NCBI GenBank assembly: GCA_020055645.1 | Contig: CM034548.1 | Location: forward strand, 34,584,201-34,648,200 | Origin: Tomocerus qinae | Taxonomy: Eukaryota; Arthropoda; Collembola; Entomobryomorpha; Tomoceridae | Length of the DNA: 64,000 nt | Direction of reading: 5' to 3' | In this document: positions 14,501 through 58,300 of the stretch, piece by piece | Layout of the letters: every line of letters begins with the position of its first letter | Position numbering within the stretch: the first letter of the stretch is position 1 | The notes under the pieces: model-generated | What the model was told of the DNA's origin: nothing | What the model saw: only the letters and a program-made list of their open reading frames with translations | The model's database searches: none | Program-made: the position numbers and the translations under genes

Positions 14501-14977
14501 GAAAACTAATATTATAATGATGTGGTAAGATTTTAAAGTTTTTTTCAGTATACGTAAGCAATTTCAGTTTAAAGGAAACGGAAGGTGGGAGTATGAAATT
14601 TATGAGTGGAAATAAAAAGTTGATTAAAGAAAAGGTCAGGGCAATCTATTTATTTATTTTTGATATTGGAAGGAAGAGGAAAAAGGCACTTGCGTACTTA
14701 AGGGACATCGTGTATTGAATATAGTTTAGGCATGACTTATTATAAATGTTTGGTTAGGTATATGGCAGTATTGGGAGAAATGGTAATGAGATAGGCTTTT
14801 GTAGTAGCAGGATGTAAAAGTATTTTTATTATGTGATAGGATATAGTTGGAGCTAACAATAAGTGCTTAGTGCATAAGTAGATAAGCCTACTTGAGGATA
14901 TGGCCACATCTTGGCGTATTTTATTGCGTAATATAGTGAAAGGGTAAAAGATTGGGATTCGTCAAGTGAAGCCAGGA

Positions 14978-15036
14978 TGACGTCAGGTCGAGTTTCTATA
15001 TAAAAAGAGTTTTCACCCTCGCGAAAGCACTCTGCA
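14978..15036 (+). promoter_or_regulatory. Core promoter: CRE, TATA box and initiator-like start
   Basis: A full palindromic cAMP-response element TGACGTCA (14978-14985) is followed by TATATAAAAAG (14997-15007). An initiator-like CTGCAGTCA lies around 15036, with an alternative start near 15029 that gives more usual TATA spacing. What follows has no ATG for several hundred nucleotides, as expected of a leader. The nearest recognised plus-strand gene downstream is AstA, 11.7 kb away, whose first coding exon begins with a splice acceptor. Assigning this promoter to AstA is inference. Confidence 0.55.
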
Positions 15037-15654
15037 GTCAACTTTGCCGTGTCCTGACAAGCGTTGGAACGTCTTACAAACATACTCAGGGACTGTTTAC
15101 TATATATTACACTCTCCCACTCAGATATTTTTACTTCCTGACGAGAGGAGGAGGCTTTTATCCCGCACTTGCATTATAGCTGAAGAGGTGGAAAGAACAA
15201 GTTTGAGACAGAGCAGGCAGAATTATAACGAGGATCAAACAGGAACTCGCCACAAGAGAGAAAGTCGAATTAGTTGTCCAGGCAAGATATTCCGAGCCGC
15301 CTCTTTCTTTCACTCCCCGTCATCTTTTCCCCAGTTTACACCCTCCCAACCGACTCTCTCACTCACTCACTCTAACCCAGTTCCAGCTTCACACCAAGTA
15401 AACCAAATCTAACCAAGCTTAGCCACTCTGCTCATTGCCTCCTGTCTGCCTCCATCTCAGTATAGTCAAGCCACGATTTCCGCTCAAAGCTCTTTTCACT
15501 CCAATTCTATTCAAGTGTACATCTACTACTCAACCTCCCAACCAGCCACCAAACTGACACACAAATACTGCTGTTCTGCACTATTCTCATTCCCGAATCA
15601 ACCCTACGGAGCCAATTCATTTCTAAACACCTGTTGACCATCGCCTCACTATAA
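15036..15654 (+). other. Putative 5' untranslated leader exon (ATG-free)
   Basis: No ATG occurs anywhere in these 619 nt, and the ATG-free stretch continues to about 15766. That is very unlikely by chance and typical of a real 5' leader. The segment is more GC-rich than its surroundings and strongly pyrimidine-rich in its second half. It ends at a plausible donor, CTATAAAG/gtactt. It sits immediately downstream of the CRE-TATA promoter. It could be the distal first exon of AstA or of an unrecognised plus-strand gene. Confidence 0.5.
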
Positions 15655-17462
15655 AGGTACTTAAAAATTTTAACTATTTTTTACCATTTCACTCTACAAA
15701 CGCTTTCTCTATTAGAAATAAGCAATTCTTTATTCTTTCTCTGTTATAGTAGCAATACATCCCAAAATTATATGTGCATCTCAATAATACGTAGACTCCG
15801 TCATTTCTATTAATTTCTTTCATCTCATTTCCAATCTGTAACAAGGAATCTCAACCATACAGAAAATTACTTTTTAAATCTTTCATGATAAACTTTTTAA
15901 GCTTCTCCTTTATTCCATTACTTCATAGCATGAAACCGGCTTTGCTTCTAACTCGTTGGAATTTTAAAGCATAGAGATTCATAACTAAAACCGCATTGTC
16001 TAAGAACATACTCAAAATAGTCTATGTTTGATTTTTGATATTAAAAGTCAAATCCCTTGAAATGAATAAGCATAGCTTCGGCATCTCATATTGAAAATCG
16101 TGCATCCTTTTTGCAAATACTATTTAGAAATAAGTGCAAACATACTAGCATATCCAAATACCATAAAATTGATGATATTCCTATCTGTATGATGTAATTA
16201 CAGTAGATCTTTTATTCTTTGTCATCTTTTGTGTTGTAAAAAAGTTGGGGAATACTGACAAACTTTCAGAAATCTTATTTTTTAATTTTTCGTACATTAA
16301 TATAAGACGTCAAAGCATTTTGACTAATGTAAATGAATATTTTAAATGGCGATTCCTAAATTCTAAAGTCATAAAAGTGAAAAATTATTGCCCTCACTTT
16401 TTACTCAATCATAGCATCTCCTGAAATAAATATAGAATGGAATCATTAACCAATGCAAAAGTATTTTCAGCCTCTGATAATGAAAATTTGTGTTGATGTA
16501 GTTTCGATGTCTAAATCGCTAGAAGTTATTTCTTGTATTAGAGGCAGAACCTAAGTTTATAGTGCATTACTCTACATACGGTAAAACTGTAGGGGGCTAA
16601 GCTCATCTGCGTTGGTTAGTGTTAACTTTTAGGTACTTTTTGGTGGCGTTCATGAAAGCTGTGTATTATTTGCATCTGCTCATCTTTAGAATTTTAGTAC
16701 CAAGGTATTCCATTTCATTTTTGGATCTAAACTCTCGATCACCTAACTGGCATGATTTGTATCATATTTACAATATAAATGTTATTGGCATACACCCAAT
16801 TCTTACTTCATCATTATGTAGTATCAACATCAAAAGTTTTGCATTTGTTTGTCTAAAATGTTAAATTTGCATAAAATTGACAAAGGATTTGTTTTTCATA
16901 TTATGAGAGGAAGCAGAGGCCATAGCAATAATGCAATCTCATTGAATTTAATGGTATGTACATTGAAGCGAGAGCCATTGGTCCATTACACTCTTACATC
17001 CGCTGCCTTTCCCATCTACTCGTGTATTCCCATCTTTTGAGTAAGACTGCGGAGCTAGGAAAAGTTTTCTGGGGAACTTACAGACGTATGTTGTGGACGG
17101 AATTTCCCATTTTCAGAATTGGTTTCTTGGCTAATATTATCAAGTTGCCTCCGAGTAATAGTATTATACCGAAAGTAATAAATACAGGGTCAAATCCTAT
17201 GAGTTTTCTTTCAAGGTTAGTTTCCAAATGTCTTTATAATCTCCTTTTACAAAATATTGGAGACTTTGCCCAAAAAAGAAGCTTAAGAAAGTGATAATAT
17301 AGCTAGAAGACAAAAACCTAAATGAGTTTACCTGTTGATACGAATTCTACTATATTGTAGAAAATATCACTATGAAATAGATGATATATATTTTGTTGGA
17401 TAGCTAGTTAGTTTGTCAAAGTAAAATAGAAGGTTCATATAACATGGGAGTCAATTTCTTGC

Positions 17463-25700: not shown

Positions 25701-26715
25701 TTTTTGAAAACAAAACCAGAGAAATAGTCAAGAGTATTTTTGGATGATGTTTGCCAATCCAATTTGTACGTCTCTCGTAGGTGAAATTATTACCTTAGAT
25801 ACATACATAGTTATTTTATGATTGCTTTTTTGTTTAATTAGAATAGTGGCTTACGTCATAAAAGAGAAAGCGGAAATCAATTCTTGAACACAGAAATGTA
25901 CATATAGAATGGTACAAGAATTGCACTACTAGTAATTCTGCTATTGAAGTATAATTACGGAAGGTAATACCACTATTTTGCAATTTCCGTGGGCAAGCTA
26001 AATGTCAACGTTTGTATTGCTACAGAATATTGTAAGACCAAAATAGTCTCGATCCTTTGTAAAATATTGACCAACGTTTTCCTTTATGTACGAGAAAAAA
26101 TAAACTTGACTTTGTAGTATTTATGGTGAAATAATTTCATGAAAATAAAGAGAAAGTAAGTTAACACGCATTTTAATGCTTTAATCCCAGTGGAGATTAT
26201 TTTTGATACATTATGTAGGCGGGGTCTGCAGAACTCTTGAATTTTTTTAATTGACTTCCACTTATAAGTGTCAGAATACGTGTAGGCGTTTATCAGTCTT
26301 GAGTCTACGTAATAGCAATTACACTTTGAACTTTTGTGGTTGGGGTTTCACCATGGTTATTTATAATAGTGTCAATATAATTACTTTACATCCCTTTGGC
26401 ATTTGCCAGTTGGTTGTCAATTAGTTCAATTTGCATCAATGTGCATTGTGAGGTATGTGGGAGTTAGGTGTAAGGTATAATATATAGTGAAACAATGAAA
26501 AATGGAATAAACGCTGTAGGATAAGGATAGATATTGGAGTAGAAAATTGCGTTGGCGAAGAGAGAGTGTGCTGGCAAATGTCATGCGAAAGCAATTTGAT
26601 TGTGAAATAAATAAGGGAGAGAGGAGTGAATTGGTCTGTTGTAAGGATTCGGTTGGTGTTAGGGAAATGAGGTAGGAAAAGAAAGATTTGATTTGGTTCA
26701 TTTTTTTACTTTCAG
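22780..26715. other. No recognised gene; likely AstA upstream or intronic DNA
   Basis: This stretch ends at the acceptor TTTTACTTTCAG of the first AstA coding exon (26715). The 26.43-26.70 kb part is purine-rich on the plus strand. No domains were recognised in its short ORFs. Confidence 0.45.
23834..23864. repeat. Near-perfect AT palindrome
   Basis: A 31-nt sequence from GGTACT to AGTACC reads almost identically on both strands. It is alternating TA-rich and could form a cruciform or hairpin. No gene link is seen. Confidence 0.5.
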
Positions 26716-26729
26716 ACAGAAAAATAAAG

Positions 26730-27421
26730 ATGCAGCGTCTAGGGAATATTTTAGCGTACCAGCTGCTGATGTTGCTCGTTGTGGACTCGTATGCCTGGCC
26801 TCGGGAAGTTCAGGAGGACTATGACACGAAAGGATTGTACCCAGCTGAATTACAAAACAATCGATTCCCAAACTATGAATTATATCCGGGGAAGCGGAGT
26901 GCAAGAGATGAATCATCTTACGAAGATTTCACATCGCCGTCCTTGGTAGATACAATGAATGTGGCTGACAAACGAGTTCCCGCTAATATGTACTCCTTTG
27001 GTCTTGGCAAACGGAATAAAGCATATGGATTCGGACTGGGGAAGCGAGAAAATATCTGGAAACTTCACCCAGTCAACATGCCCTACAGGTAATTACCTAC
27101 ACTGCTCTAATTGGACCAAAAATTATGCAGACTTGTACAAACAGCAATGCCAATAACCTCCAGTGGTGTTTGTGTAATTCAAGTTGTATTTATTCACTTT
27201 CACACATATTAATGAGTCAGATGAAACTCTAATTGTGGCTTTCTGTCTCTTTTCCGCTCTCCTGGCGTGGCAGACAAGAGAGAAGTTCAAAGATCTATTC
27301 TTTCGGACTGGGCAAACGGGGAAGCAGCTTCGACGACCACGACAGAGGCTCAGTCACTCAATCACGCCTATTTTCTTTTGGTTTGGGAAAGCGTGAGACA
27401 CAGTCCAGTCCTTCCAACTGA
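26730..27421 (+). CDS. AstA: Allatostatin-A (FGLamide) neuropeptide precursor
   Basis: Secreted prohormone cut in the regulated pathway into C-terminally amidated FGLamide peptides, ligands of the galanin-like allatostatin-A receptor. Coding exons are 26730-27088 and 27274-27421, giving 168 residues; the total is a multiple of three. A pyrimidine tract and AG at 26714-26715 lie 14 nt before the ATG, so at least one upstream untranslated exon exists. Residues 1-22 look like a signal peptide with cleavage after SYA. Four repeats end in FGLGKR: MYSFGL (ends about 95), AYGFGL (106), IYSFGL (135) and LFSFGL (160). In each, Gly is the amide donor and KR the cleavage site. The intron (AG/gtaatt to gtggcag/A) falls in the spacer between repeats two and three. 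A further KR site at 55-56 follows NYELYPG, which keeps the repeat spacing but not FGL. A short tail, ETQSSPSN, ends the protein. Many insects have more copies; Drosophila has four. Identity is very secure. Confidence 0.96.
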
Positions 27422-47966: not shown

Positions 47967-48187
47967 AATGGTTGAGTTTCTTATTATAAGTCTCTGGTGG
48001 ATGGGCGACCTCACTAAGGAATAATCATCGTTATTGCGCTCGATAGATGCCCCACCACTGCACTGAAAGTAACGTGCATGTACAGTCAAATGCAGTGGTG
48101 GGACATCTATCGAGCACAATAACGATGAATTATTCCTTAGTAAGGTCGCCCATCCACCAGAGACTTATAATAAGAAACTCAACCATT
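47967..48187. repeat. Long near-perfect inverted repeat (96-bp arms, 28-nt loop)
   Basis: Left arm 47967-48062 and right arm 48091-48187 are reverse complements except for three substitutions and one single-base insertion, about 96% identity. The spacer (48063-48090) contains a small GTGCATGTAC near-palindrome. Flanks show no clear target-site duplication. RNA from either strand would fold into one long hairpin. On the minus strand all three substitutions become G.U wobbles. It may be a young foldback element or a hairpin-RNA gene. No other copy is visible in the window. Confidence 0.95.
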
Positions 48188-50343: not shown

Positions 50344-53300
50344 TTATCGACGCCAGCTTCTTTCATCCTCGTCATCCTCCTCCTCGTCGTACTGCAAAAG
50401 TATTTCGTTTGCTAGCATATCCCCGAGCTGAAATAGAATTAGAGTATATTTAGTACTTATATCAAAATAGACAGTTCTCATGTGCACTCAGTGCACTCTT
50501 TAAACACACCAGTTTGTAAAAATTAATGGCAACTTTTATTCGGATACAAAAATTAGAATAATGTACCTCGTCATCATCCAAGGACCCTGCATTATCATTT
50601 TCCTCAGTGTGAGAAATTTCTCCATTAGAAGGGCTGTTTGAATTCTGCTTATCAGAACTATCTAAACTATCATTAGCAACCCACTGTATGTTAAGGGTCA
50701 AATCTCCAAAGTTGACGCCATTGGATTTTGCTATTTCAGCCATTACTCGAGAACCATAGCTAATTGTCATACTTGGAGTCTTCATGTCTGTCTCGTAAAA
50801 CTCGATGGATCCATATTGCTAAAATAATAAAAACAAAGAAACCATGACTGCATTGCAAATTTATATTTCATATACATAAAAATAAGAATATTACTGCAAA
50901 GTGTGTGAGAAGATCTGTTAGCCGAACAGGTGGAAATCCTGTAATTAAGATTTTGGTGGGACGGCGATCAACTGTTCGTAAAGACCGCATTCTTCCTCTA
51001 CCCCGTCTGCAAATAAATAGAAAGTTAGTGCATGACTCATTATTAACAAAAATTAAAACATTTATCAGCAACAATTACAAAGCACTAATGTTTTGTTCAA
51101 TAACCAGTTAAGTGACTAGTTAGAATAATTTGAAAATGCCTACAATGTAAAATGTTTGAGGTTAAAAATGAAATCTTACATCACACGACCCCGAGATACA
51201 AATCCTCTTGAAGCACCTCTAAATGACCCTCGACCTCGAGGAATTATACCCATAGATTGAGCCTGTACCCGCAGTTCTGTTACTTTTTTCTGAAGAGCGA
51301 TAGTATCTCCACCTTCCTGTTCCTTATTATATAAATCTAGTTCAGCGTCCAAGATTTCACGCTGAGTTTGAATCAACTGCAACAAAAATTTAAAACCATA
51401 ATAATAAATATAAATTCACTTTATTTCACTTAAAATCTAGTTTCGTTAACTTGAGTTTGAATATTATGTACCTCCTCTCTGCTTTTTGTTACAGGTTGAT
51501 TTAACATTTGGGCTTTTGATGAGTCCTCGAGATCTTTCTTAATAGTCTCTATACTCTCTTGCAACGATTTGATCAGAGACATTAATTTTTCGCGTTCGTC
51601 CGGTTTCATTTGAGTTTTATTAGTTTCCAACTTAGCTATTAACTTCTTTTGTTGTTCGATCTGCTCCTTCATCATATCTTGTTTTCGTTTCCGTAAATCA
51701 CACATTAACTTAAGAGTCTCTTTTTTCTTTTCTTCTTGCATTCGCTTACGACTTTCTTGGGCCGCTAGCATCTCCTGACTTTTCTTTATGGCTTCAACGG
51801 CCTTCACAAAGTCAAATATTGAAAACGTTCAACTCATTTATAATTTGAAATCATATTCAGTATTTTAAAATAATTACACTACATACCTGGACTTTATCCT
51901 GGGCAACTTCTGCTTGTTTTTTAAGAAGTGATGGGGTATACACAGTTTTAGTTAGATTGCTGCCGGATACTAAAACTTTTTCTTGCTCGACTTTTTCTGG
52001 TTCTTCGGTGGACCCAAGACGATCTTTCAATGGAACTCGAGGAGTGCCCCCTTCGACTCCATCCTCGTTTTCCTGATATTAATCATACAAATTATTTATC
52101 AAAACTTTATTTGCAGTTATACAAAATACCAAGTAATCCCATCGTATAATTAGTTTTAGCGGCGGAACTTGAACAGGTATAATAATAATGTATCCCTAAT
52201 AAGCTATTAGTATTATTTTATAATAAATTGCTTAATGCAATGTAGGTCATCAATATGAATGAGAAACCCTAAGGGCCTCCAGTGGACGATAACACATTTT
52301 TAACCACTTTAGTAAAAAAGCTAACAACAGTAAATACTTTTATTTTGACAATAACTTTTCCCCTGGTAATAATCATGGAAACGCTCACCAAGAAGGCAAA
52401 TAGTTCAATACATATTCAAGCACATATAATATTATCTCATGAGTAAATTTACCTTCTCTTTATTGTGCCAGAATACTCGGATGAATCTATTGTTAAGTAC
52501 GGCTTCAGTGCATCGGTAGGCAGCTTGAGCTTCCATTGGGCTTGAGAAAGTTATTAGGGCTGCCTCTGGGTCGTTTTCGAAGTTTATTTGAATGTTGACA
52601 ATTTTTCCGAAACGAATGAAATGACTATTCAGTTCCATAATTGTGTTTTGTTCTCGGGGAACTTTTTTAACTTCCAGAGAACAATTGGCAAAATTTCGAG
52701 CAGGCTTCGCCCCAAGACGACCGTGATCGAATCCACCTCGTCCACGTCCTCTAGGTGCATGGAGAAGTCCTCTAATAATTGGCTGATGCATTTGGTGAGG
52801 GCCTCGCATATCTAAGACCATTGGGTTTGCTGATGGGACCCCCATAACTGGAACACTGATTAATTCCCGCTGATGAGGAATTGGAAATGGGCCCATCGGA
52901 CGCTGTAATAATCCTGGACGACACCTTGGACCTTTCATATGCAATCAAATATACAATTGTTGTTAATACTTTGAAAGTATTTCTAGCTAATTTAAATTAC
53001 AATTTTTTCTTACCCATATGGCGAGGTCTAAACGGAGGCTGGCCAGTTGACCAACCGATTCCTGGTTCTACAGCTGGATTGTCGGGATAATACTCTCCTA
53101 TGACACATCATCAAAAATATTTTACTACAATATGGCTGTTACAGTTGAAAAAGATCGATATTTAATTGTTCAAGTAAAACAAAATTGTCAATTGCAAGAA
53201 AGTTGAAGTGTCATATACTTTTAGTTATTGACATATGAAATATAAAATGCTAACCCATTAAAGGAACAGCCGGGCGCATTATTTGTGGAGGCCCTGAGAA

Positions 53301-56300
53301 AATTGGCTGAGACGGCAGATTTTGGCTAAACTCGGCAGCCTGACGATGGATATGAGCCGGAACTATTATATCTTCCAGGACAAGGGGATCCTGCCCGTGG
53401 TCATAAGGACATAGTTCACCTCGCATGCACAAACCACGCTCTGTATCAGAAAAATGGAATCATTAGACAAGGCTGATTATTCTTTGAAGTCCATGTTATT
53501 TAGAAAACTTACCGTCAAAATCCCGGCATCTATTCCCAACGTTCATAGGCGTACTTTGCAAGGCGGTCGCATAACCTACTTCTAAAACAAACGAATATTA
53601 TTTAGATAAAAATATTAAAGCAAGTGCTTTCGTTAAAACTATCGAAAATAAATATTTGAATTCTTACTATCGCTTTGGTCATTAACCCCCGGTCGCACAA
53701 CGACGCTTGGCAACATCGGTTTTTCGGGTTCAGTAGCGGCTTCTTCTTCTATACTAACTGGTATAGGCAACAACGGATCCTTTTTATCCAACTTCTCTCT
53801 CAACGGGCTCCTTGACCGGTTACGGTTTTGCGATCTGGAGCGCGATGCTGAACGTGATCGACTATGATAAGCCCTTCGATATCGCGGCGGGGTTCGACTT
53901 CTTGCTCGCGGGGATGCTGAGCGGTTTCTGGCAGGGGAACGAGACCTTCTGTAACATTAAATACAAAAATGATTAGCAAACATCCAACCAAATTACTTTG
54001 AACCTCAATTACATCATTATTGACCTACTTACATTATTTACTTAATCTAGAACTTATAATACTTAACCTATGCAATGTCAAAGAAATATTCTTATTTGGG
54101 GATTGTTTTAATAACTTCCAGAAAATCATCAGAAATAATAGGAACAAGCTATTTAATGTATTTTACATTAGCATTAGCTACCAAAAATATCACTCAAAAA
54201 TCAAATTCCATGTTTTAGTGGTTGGTATGGTACATAAATTCATGTTATATTTATGTACGATTTACATTTTACTAATGTATATAACCCACCGACTGTAACT
54301 TGTGGAAGGTTCGTTATTGTTTCGAGACCGTCTGCCTGAGTAATCTTGACGAAGAGTTCGATAGTCCGATTCAGACGAACTGGTACTAGATTTGAACCGA
54401 ACATTTTTTTTAGGAGGGTCAGGAGGGACAAGAGCATATTTCTTTTTCCTTTTTTTTCTTTTTTTGGCTGCTTCCATTTGCTCGCGTCTTTCCTGCCGAG
54501 CTATGGCCAACTGAGACAAGGACTCGTCAAAATCACTCTCACATGATGTATCCACCTCGCTCCACTCATTGTTTTGGGATAGAAGAAGGCGAAAGAATCT
54601 GGCCTGACTAGCAGTCCTTCGTACGTAATCTGGAGTATGTGCAGAACCTGATGAAAATGAGGAATCCACTACCGAACCTTCTGGATATTCTCGGTCACTT
54701 TTATCAATAGCATCTCCACTCAAATCAAATAGTGAAGGTACATAAGTAATCACATCCGACGACGAACTTGATGTCGATTGGACAAAAGATTCGCTGAATG
54801 AGTATCTTGCAGTGGAATTCAATGTATTGCTCGATGAAGGATTTTCATGAGTACTCGCACCATAACTAGATGAGACTTCAGTTGAAGAAATCTGCACTAC
54901 TGAAGATGTCGTCCTAGTGGTTTCTGTTTCTGAGTCCGATTCCATTTTGATTCAGGCAATTTTAAAAAGACCGGCCAACACGCGACTTGTAGTAATTAAA
55001 TCCAAAAGAGGAGGATGGACAGACAGATGACTAAAGAAAACAGTTCAGATGTTTTTGGAAAGAAACCTTTTCAAAATTCGGAAAACCCTAGTGAATTTGA
55101 TTACTATTACTAGATAACTATTTGGATGTTCGAAATTACTATTTTTTCCCACAGGAATACTATATTTTTACTCGAAATTTTAAGAAAATTAGAAGAGAAT
55201 TATTTGACTGCCGATAATCTGGGTACAACAAAAGGAGAATGAGAGTGAAGTGAGAGCGAGAAAAGACCGACGAGTTGGTGGGGTGAGTGGGTGAAAACGG
55301 AAGACGACTAGAGATGAGAGGACTACAACAATACTAGTAGACAGCAATTAGTCACACAGTCACAGCACTCTCGGCGGGCGCAGAGACAGAGGGACTTGCA
55401 ATGCGGAAGGAAGGAAGGTTCCCCTAACCGGACACGTGTGTCCACTTCTGTGTTATGAATATGAATTATTTCTGTTAAATGATCCAATAAAAAAACCTAT
55501 TCTCATCTTTCAACCAATTTTGAATTTAGACTAAGTACACAGTAGCATGTTGTAGTACATTTAGAGCAATTATTCCGATGTCCGAGTCCAAATTTTGTAA
55601 TCAGTAACTGATTCCAGTGAATTTTGGAGTAATTCCACAAACAAGGAGAACTATTAGAGTAGTAATTACGATAATTAAGAAAAAAATTAAATTATGAAAG
55701 GGTAAAGTAAGTTATTATTAATTATTTAATTATTTTTATTTTCATTATTATTATCTGGCCATGCCGCTCTCATTTCACATTTACTCCTTGTGTGTAGGTA
55801 GGTACTAGGTATACTTCAATTCAAACCTTCTACTACTAATGAAAAACATCTACTCTTTGTTTAGATTTGATTATTGATTTAAAATAACTCAGATCAATTC
55901 TTCTGACTATCAACTATTAGATTAGGAGTGTACATTGAATAAGATGTTAGATCACCAGTTCATAGTTCAGCTTTATTCAAGTGACAGTGACAACATAGGC
56001 CCATCAATCACACAAAGTTGAAATAAGTAAGAAGGTCCAGAAATAACCAACTCTATTCACCGAGAGTCACCAGTATTCAATTATTTAGTGCAATCCAGCG
56101 TAAAAAGCTACTTGTTGAACCAATGTTGAATGTTTATTTTATGTTTTAAATCGAATTAGGTGTTCACTTTAAGAATAGTCGTTTGTTTAAAGTTTTCCAT
56201 GAAGTAAAGAATGATATTTATATTTATAATTCCTTTTCGTCCCGACATTGCAGATATAATGGTTTTTATATCTTACAGGGGAAACTACATACTTTAGTAA

Positions 56301-58300
56301 CTAGGCACAACTGGAAACTATATTTAAGATGCATCTTTATTCATGAAGTGCTATTCATCTGCTGGATATAAATAATTTCCTTTCAAGAGTGACTTTGATA
56401 AGGAGTTTTTCTTTGAAAACAAGCTAGCATATTAGGTTTCCTTTAAAATTAGATCCTCGGTCTATAGTTTCATCTTTCATGTGTTCGCTCACACATGGCC
56501 CGTGAACCACACGCGAACAACTTAGGATATTAAGTTTGTATTGCTACTGTGCTGGCACATTGATCCTTATTGAACAAAGGACATCTACTTCATAGCTTAC
56601 AAACAAGTTATAGTGGGTACCTTATCTGATCACGGCGACTTTAAGGTACACTTTCACTTCCATTATGACCTTTGATTTTATCTGTTGATTGCTTTTGTAT
56701 TGACATTGAAAAAGATAATTTGCTGTCAAAATATAGAATGAATACCTTTACAATCAATTAGTACAAATGCGTAGGTAGCCTGCCTATTTCATTTAGATGT
56801 ATTTGCTTTCTCATTTCGGAGAATTTATGTCACCGATTGTGGCTTCCCAATAGCAAAAGTTTATTTGATATTTTTAATTTTTGCAGATTTGTGAGATCCA
56901 TCTTACTACAATACTCAGCTGGAGAGTACAAATATCATGGTGGCAACACAGGACGAATACTAATATTTTTGCTGGAGGAATGAATTTGAAAATCAAGTAG
57001 CATCTGAGTCTGATTGCATTTAGTACTATTATATCAATTCGGATTGTAGTAAGTGTAAGTCAGAAATAGCTTCACAATTCTATTGTACACTCTTTAACAT
57101 TGCAAGCTTTCAATACTTGTACAATTAATAGTATGTTAAAACAATTTTACCCTTTTTATGTTTCAATTCAAATTAAATATTTGTTGGGGTTAAAACAAAT
57201 ATTTAATTACCCATTTAAATATTTAGAGCGTAATTAATTTTTAAAATTTGTTCATTAATAATGTAATATTTTTTTGTTTGGTATAGGAAGGTGAAAAGAT
57301 GACACTGACCTTCTATCCCAAATATCTCTTTCGTATCTGCGAATCGGTGGGGATAATTTTCTTCCGCGATGTCTATTTCTGTCTCTTTCTCGATCTCTAG
57401 GGCTCCTTGATCTACGATTTCTTTCCCTGGAACGAGATCGACTTCTACGGGGACTTCGAGATTTCCGCTTGTTTCTATCTTTGTCATCCTAACGTGGATA
57501 TTTAAAAAGTTAATCACTACGATTCCAAACCTTGTAATAATTAAATTATCGGAATACTTACATCCTTTCTATCTCGTCTCGCAGGACGATTTTCATCGTT
57601 TTTATTTGTGTTTAAAACTGTTGTAACAATTTCATGTGTTGGAGCAGGAGGATTTTGTGATAACGGTGTAGACGGGACTATATCAGCAGCACTGTTATTG
57701 AGACCACTCTGAAGAGAAGAAGTGACTGTAAGCTGCAATTCATCTTCATTTTCTGAATTCATTGCTAAGTCTTCTGATATTTCATTATGTGACATATACT
57801 TTTTTGAGTTCAAAGTTTGAAAGAGAAGTTCAACAAAGCCTTTTGTTTCTGTAAGTACATTTTTAAAATTTAATAAAATTTAACACAAAAATATTAACTT
57901 ATCAATAATAATTATATTTTTACCTTGCTGTAAGAAAACATCTAATTGATCAATCATACTCTGTCTTAACTCCTTTTCAGGTTTATCTTTTTTAATTAAT
58001 GCTAGCACATATTTAGCCAATGCTGAGGGATCGGCATCACACCTGTTAAATAAATTGAGAGTATTTATATTATTATTTTGTTTGGCGAGGAAGAAATAAT
58101 CCTCAACAGTTGACACCTGTGTAGATAATGAGCAATATGTTATTTGTTAAGTCAAAAGTTATAACAGATGGTGAAAAGAAAAGTAAATAGAAAGTTGCTT
58201 ACAATGGTTTTAAAACTGAAGTTAGCCATTTTCGTAAATTTTCAGTACTGTCGACCTGTACTCCTGTAGGGGGCACAGTTGCCCCTGGTTTCTTAGACAT
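50344..58300 (-). CDS. swm: RBM26/RBM27-family nuclear RNA-binding protein
   Basis: Homologue of vertebrate RBM26/27 and fly second mitotic wave missing; family members act in nuclear poly(A) RNA surveillance with the MTR4-ZFC3H1 exosome adaptor. Fifteen exons: 58203-58300, 57924-58042, 57562-57848, 57310-57488, 53668-53948, 53513-53581, 53255-53440, 53014-53097, 52453-52931, 51887-52072, 51472-51801, 51180-51376, 50895-51006, 50567-50818, 50344-50427. The sum is 2943 nt, 980 residues, all phases matching. Order: PWI-like fold (about 15-90, with CDADPSALAKYVLALIKKDK and QLDVFLQQ); RS-rich region (170-300); CX8CX5CX3H zinc finger (about 337-357); Pro/Arg/Gly-rich linker; RRM1 (about 518-590); coiled coil (about 650-770); RGG-type region (about 810-840); RRM2 (about 848-920); acidic tail ending DEDERSWRR, a family hallmark. 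The start ATG at 58300 gives MSKKPGATVPP. Length is close to human RBM26. Confidence 0.97.
54290..54945 (-). CDS. swm: Alternative serine-rich first coding exon of swm
   Basis: It lies inside intron 4 of swm. ATG at 54945 has an excellent context (ATCAAAATGG) and an in-frame TGA two codons before. The frame runs 218 codons to a donor, AGTCG/gtgggt, at 54290. It leaves phase 2, exactly like canonical exon 4, so it joins in frame to the exon at 53948. The resulting protein would be 971 residues (2916 nt) without the PWI-like domain but with zinc finger and both RRMs. Residues 1-110 are Ser/Thr/acidic. Residues 148-169 are charged, ending in KKRKKRKKK (nuclear-localisation-like). KNVRF (180-184) fits the RVxF docking motif for protein phosphatase 1. 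Without splicing, the frame stops at 54262. I do not recognise the segment as a family. It might instead be an independent gene nested in the intron. Confidence 0.7.
54946..55440 (-). promoter_or_regulatory. Internal swm promoter and ATG-free leader
   Basis: On the minus strand no ATG occurs between about 55502 and the start codon at 54945. This stretch includes a locally GC- and CT-rich patch (55240-55440) unlike the AT-rich intron around it. An E-box, CACGTG (55433-55438), lies inside a near-palindromic GGACAC/GTGTCC context at its upstream edge. No TATA box is evident. This is the layout of an alternative promoter with an untranslated leader. Confidence 0.55.
55441..57309 (-). other. Distal part of swm intron 4
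   Basis: AT-rich intronic DNA from the canonical donor AGAAG/gtcagt (57309) to the internal promoter. No coding sequence was recognised. Confidence 0.6.

Follow-up and report, generated by a model that had tools for sequence, protein, structure and literature searches.

Within the fourth intron of a swm/RBM26-27 gene we found an open reading frame on the gene's own strand, which is longer than chance would give and is probably, not certainly, coding. Among the explanations considered we favor, with about even confidence, an alternative first coding exon served by a second promoter in this intron over a nested gene or a chance frame. It is the single model that fits best, since it joins a coding-like frame, an ATG-free leader, a matching splice phase and the strongest U1-pairing donor of the intron.

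The host gene lies on the minus strand of the window (the whole 64-kb stretch of DNA analysed), where 15 exons between 58300 and 50344 join into an open reading frame of 980 aa. The encoded protein shows a PWI domain, RS-rich sequence, a CCCH zinc finger and an RRM in this order, which is the arrangement of RBM26/27/swm. We named the gene swm/RBM26-27 from this domain order and family knowledge, without alignment to a named orthologue. A PWI-like domain had been expected in the N-terminus that the alternative exon would replace, and residues 21–88 of the canonical protein were indeed assigned to PWI (PF01480) with an E-value of 2.8e-8 and 34.4 bits at a cut-off of 22. The zinc finger (zf-CCCH, PF00642, 21.0 bits versus a cut-off of 20.5) and the RRM (RRM_1, PF00076, 52432–52944, 21.8 bits versus 20.7) barely passed, and the stretch 50462–50818 gave no Pfam match above any cut-off. 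A comparison of the N-terminal 407 residues of the canonical protein with the PDB returned two zinc-finger chains (E 0.03–0.08) and a designed cytochrome trimer (E 0.0017), with no stretch passing alone. The same combination of PWI, RS-rich, CCCH and RRM parts is shared by swm, RBM26-RBM27, rbm-26 and Rmn1, the PAXT and MTREC exosome adaptors (family context in excerpts of PMC7049725 and PMC11556708). According to such excerpts, Swm is the fly relative of RBM26/27 (PMC7049725), RBM26/27 are connected to nuclear exosome targeting (PMC7049725, PMC10598014), and RBM27 has a PWI-like domain, within which the human variants L13V and P79L fall (PMC11556708).

Canonical exons 1–4 total 683 nt. Thirteen of the 14 introns span 72–380 nt and intron 4 is nearly nine times as long as the next-longest one, a size that argues for an alternative first exon within it. 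The coordinates of all features are given in Table 1.

Table 1. Features of the swm gene and of the open frame in its fourth intron (window coordinates).
Feature	Position	Strand	Remark
swm canonical exons 1–3	58300-58203, 58042-57924, 57848-57562	-	encode PWI domain
swm canonical exon 4	57310..57488	-	phase 2 at its end
swm intron 4	53949..57309	-	3,361 nt
Start-like patch, GC-rich and C/T-rich	55201..55445	-	putative promoter activity
ATG-free leader, 560 nt	54946..55505	-	ATG counts
Candidate alternative first coding exon, serine-rich N-terminal segment	54290..54945	-	open frame, phase 2 at donor
Same frame to its own stop, 227 aa (P0001)	54262..54945	-	what a nested gene would encode
RVxF-like motif KNVRF, residues 180–184	54394..54408	-	matches a loose and a strict pattern
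Candidate donor TCG/GTGGGT	54288..54289	-	U1 duplex -8.6 kcal/mol; exon end 54290
Second in-phase candidate donor AAT/GTAAAT	54264..54265	-	exon end 54266, overlaps stop; missing from the earlier note
swm exon 5, RS-rich	53668..53948	-	acceptor used at 53948
swm exons 6–15	50344..53581	-	CCCH zinc finger, RRM, C-terminal part; common to both isoforms

The frame begins with an ATG at 54945 in the context ATCAAAATGG, and an in-frame TGA begins 9 nt above it at 54954, both as described in the earlier note. This TGA excludes an in-frame internal (cassette) exon read through from exon 4. The 218 codons that had been counted from the ATG to a donor are likewise present, the stretch between 54945 and 54290 measuring 656 nt (218 codons plus 2 nt). 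The earlier note had missed that the frame closes itself at a TAA at 54264–54262, eight codons past the donor codon. On the opposite strand of intron 4 the longest ATG frame has 47 codons. None of 2,000 simulated introns with the composition of intron 4 reached 227 codons, at order 1 as well as at order 2; when the ORF's own composition was used, this length was attained in 1 of 2,000 (order 1) and 9 of 2,000 (order 2) simulations. The length of the ORF speaks for the alternative first exon.

Upstream of the frame about 550 nt had been claimed to be devoid of ATG. The next ATG above lies at 55506, which leaves 560 nt; no two successive ATGs of the window's minus strand are further apart. The dinucleotides of the leader would predict 5.99 ATGs, of which none is found (Poisson chance about 0.0025), whereas the reverse trimer CAT is present 10 times in the same 560 nt. 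Such strand asymmetry is what a leader should show. An ATG-free gap of this length was not reached in any of 2,000 simulated introns with the composition of intron 4, nor in any of 2,000 with that of the minus strand; the leader's own composition produced it in 112 of 2,000, which counts against the alternative first exon. The longest ATG-free gap of the whole window, 795 nt, is found on the plus strand at 14977–15772 and covers a stop-to-stop frame of 143 codons at 14981–15412.

The CACGTG motif that had been proposed as part of a GC/CT-rich start region was located at 55438–55433 inside a locally GC- and CT-rich patch, where it sits within the dyad GGACAC-AC-GTGTCC (55430–55443). GC content is 0.445–0.49 in the windows of 55200–55499 as compared to 0.27–0.305 in those of 55500–55999, and the observed/expected ratio of CpG amounts to 0.73 at 55500–55301 and 1.24 at 55300–55101.

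At its 3' end the candidate exon leaves phase 2, the same phase as exon 4, in agreement with the earlier claim. Joined to exon 5 from 54290, the isoform measures 2,916 nt, a multiple of three, and is open over 971 aa. How the donor at 54290 is rated varies with the measure used. Its U1 pairing is the best among the 196 GTs of intron 4 and at least as good as that of 11 of the 14 swm donors. A matrix derived from these 14 donors gives it 0.97 bits, less than any of their leave-one-out scores (1.63 at the lowest), and 80 of 197 intron 4 GTs, itself included, do no worse; a G at +3 or +4 is absent from all 14 swm donors. This poor score argues against the alternative first exon. With fly-like frequencies the donor scores 1.81, above 3 of the 14 swm donors, a value equalled or exceeded by 9 of 196 GTs when the donor itself is counted. 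Sites whose U1 pairing is as strong as that at 54290 number 25 on the minus strand of the 64 kb, those of swm included (0.39 per kb), so that an in-phase site of this strength is expected by chance in about 1% of given 70-nt stretches, the stretch having been chosen after the site had been seen.

A second in-phase candidate donor, ending the exon at 54266, would give an exon of 680 nt with the same phase and an isoform of 979 aa. The swm matrix gives it 6.92 bits, the highest value within 55510–54262, and the fly-like frequencies 3.26, above 7 of the 14 swm donors; its U1 duplex of -1.6 is weaker than those of all 14. The frame's own stop forms part of the GTAAAT at this site, and among noncoding TAAs 11 of 288 lie within GTAART. 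Since the two candidate donors are 24 nt apart and of equal phase, both would keep the frame and their products would differ by eight residues. The proposal that a second promoter replaces the N-terminus of the protein is thus supported in part: frame, leader, phase and U1 pairing fit, but for the donor at 54290 the other two scores are middling and poor.

As the frame stops only eight codons beyond the donor codon, it could also belong to a nested gene on the same strand, with its own promoter and a single coding exon for a 227-aa protein, polyadenylated before exon 5 and never joined to swm. We regard such a gene as possible, if rather unlikely. The coding and leader signals fit it equally well, and the self-closing frame, which counts against the alternative first exon, is what it would need; the poor swm-matrix score of the donor at 54290 points the same way. 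Between stop and exon 5 there are ATTAAA hexamers at 54157 and 54112. This hexamer arises easily in AT-rich DNA, and the absence of AATAAA from the 316 nt between the stop and the end of the intron is weak evidence against a nested gene, and poly(A) hexamers before exon 5 therefore fail to decide between it and a first exon. Against the nested gene stand a strongly U1-pairing donor of matching phase close to where the frame ends and the lack of any paralogue or parent gene in the own genome at E-values up to 10. The frame is single-copy in its 334-Mb assembly, with one match even at this threshold. An origin from a transposon or retrocopy was rejected on the same search, which returned no second copy, paralogue or parent gene. 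Repeats in intron 4 are confined to families and tandem runs of short length.

We also assessed the coding signal of the frame. Over 654 nt it has a period-3 signal of 7.06, compared to 3.9–7.2 in five windows of swm coding sequence. This signal exceeds all 3,644 non-swm windows of 654 nt on both strands of the 64 kb (maximum 4.28), and 119 overlapping noncoding windows near swm reach at most 3.89. When the frame is divided into thirds, 0, 33 and 60 of 424 noncoding windows are as high as the first, second and third part, respectively; the periodicity is thus mostly carried by the serine-rich first third. The codon log-odds of 0.127 equal the bottom value among seven held-out stretches of swm (0.127–0.304) and lie above all 60 noncoding windows (top -0.088). 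Period-3 signal and codon log-odds above those of noncoding windows support the alternative first exon. It is weakened by the low periodicity of the later two thirds, by an antisense frame with equally good log-odds (0.134) and by synonymous codon use that is not swm-like (-0.040 per codon, a value reached by 846 of 2,000 null versions; -0.045 for the noncoding-preference null). This last test has low power, as swm itself is only slightly biased (0.051 when scored on the data used for training).

Homology searches with the 227-aa frame returned no Pfam family and four PDB chains with E-values of 0.19–0.53, which were treated as noise. A relaxase match in NCBIfam (E 0.0037) was discarded as composition noise, as its 16.3 bits compare with a cut-off of 250. 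The 28 pattern matches in IMG/VR and 85 in GTDB contigs were not confirmed by tblastn in any case; these collections are viral and prokaryotic, so the absence is uninformative on insect conservation. RNA families gave no match in 50–60 kb at E up to 1. The lack of a homologue in the collections searched is a further point against the alternative first exon, and it would suit a chance or decayed, untranslated frame in a long intron, the GC/CT-rich patch then being an enhancer or an unrelated promoter. Synonymous codons resembling noncoding sequence, a periodicity stemming mainly from the serine-rich first third and the 9 of 2,000 second-order simulations that attain the length agree with this explanation as well. 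We consider it unlikely, because, at the rate at which stops occur in the remaining intron, 226 open codons have a probability of 2e-9 and 150 one of 2e-6, and because the ATG-free leader lies directly upstream. Most improbable of all is a regulated (poison) cassette exon that is spliced to exon 4 and begins at 55030, preceded by TTTTCTTTAG: this acceptor-like site, chosen by eye, would yield a 741-nt exon to 54290, a multiple of three, in which the frame entered from exon 4 meets the TGA at 54954 and ends after about 26 codons, but it does not rank with the top 15 acceptors of intron 4 by the swm matrix, and the 227 open codons downstream would not be needed.

For the favored alternative first exon we infer the following course of expression. 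Transcription would start at a second promoter within intron 4, somewhere about 55.2–55.45 kb, and the transcript would be translated from the ATG at 54945. Splicing would most likely lead from 54290, possibly from 54266, to the exon 5 acceptor at 53948. The product would be a Swm/RBM26 protein of 971 or 979 residues lacking the PWI domain, with a new serine-rich and probably largely disordered N-terminus that includes a basic helical stretch. The protein would retain the CCCH zinc finger, the RRM and the RS region encoded by exon 5. Such an isoform could still bind RNA and might engage different partners, a speculation by analogy to RBM26/27 in PAXT. Among the literature matches listed, we did not recognise a report of such a swm isoform.

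Serine accounts for 23% of the encoded segment. A single-sequence AlphaFold2 model has a mean pLDDT of 55.7 and a confident helix at residues 136–169, where the ten-residue blocks of 141–170 average 89, 94 and 83. The segment ends in SR-containing sequence which runs on into the RS-rich exon 5, a further argument for the alternative first exon. The earlier note had suggested that the new N-terminus docks protein phosphatase 1 (PP1). An RVxF-like motif, KNVRF, is indeed present and has no counterpart in the canonical protein, but it is the only match in the segment, and among 20,000 shuffled segments 15.7% match the loose and 2.8% the strict pattern. Around the motif the pLDDT is about 46–55. 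PP1 docking by the segment is possible and weakly suggested by this motif. As described in excerpts of PMC13322074, an exosome-linked surveillance pathway includes LENG8, which recognises the PP1-binding protein RRP1B; we take this as context and not as evidence for PP1 docking here. That a PWI-less isoform from an intronic promoter recruits PP1 through its serine-rich N-terminus to nuclear RNA surveillance complexes, and so acts as a phosphatase-linked adaptor of the PAXT type, appears very unlikely to us.

Compared to the swm/RBM26-27 family, the candidate isoform loses the PWI domain and gains a serine-rich segment for which no match was found. Padi2beta and ADGRB1 are reported likewise to use a downstream intronic start that leads to a changed or shortened N-terminus; the swm candidate differs in being known here from sequence alone. 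RVxF-type regulators of PP1 offer another parallel through the KNVRF motif, around which the structure model has low confidence, whereas the swm segment has a single motif and no homologue in the searches. If the isoform exists, one gene would encode a conserved exosome-adaptor protein in two versions, one carrying PWI and one lacking it, and would provide a natural tool for separating the functions of RBM26/27 proteins. Should the frame instead be a nested gene, it would be a single-copy gene of a family unrecognised by the searches made here.

Two further features were noticed in the window. On the plus strand, a frame at 26676–27092 with MYSFGLGKR and AYGFGLGKR resembles an exon of an allatostatin-A neuropeptide precursor, a resemblance that hints at an insect genome. 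Downstream of swm a long foldback at 47967–48187 consists of outer arms of 59 nt (47967–48025 and 48129–48187, 98% complementary) and inner arms of 38 nt (48025–48062 and 48091–48128, 95%) separated by 28 nt, and is like a small foldback element.
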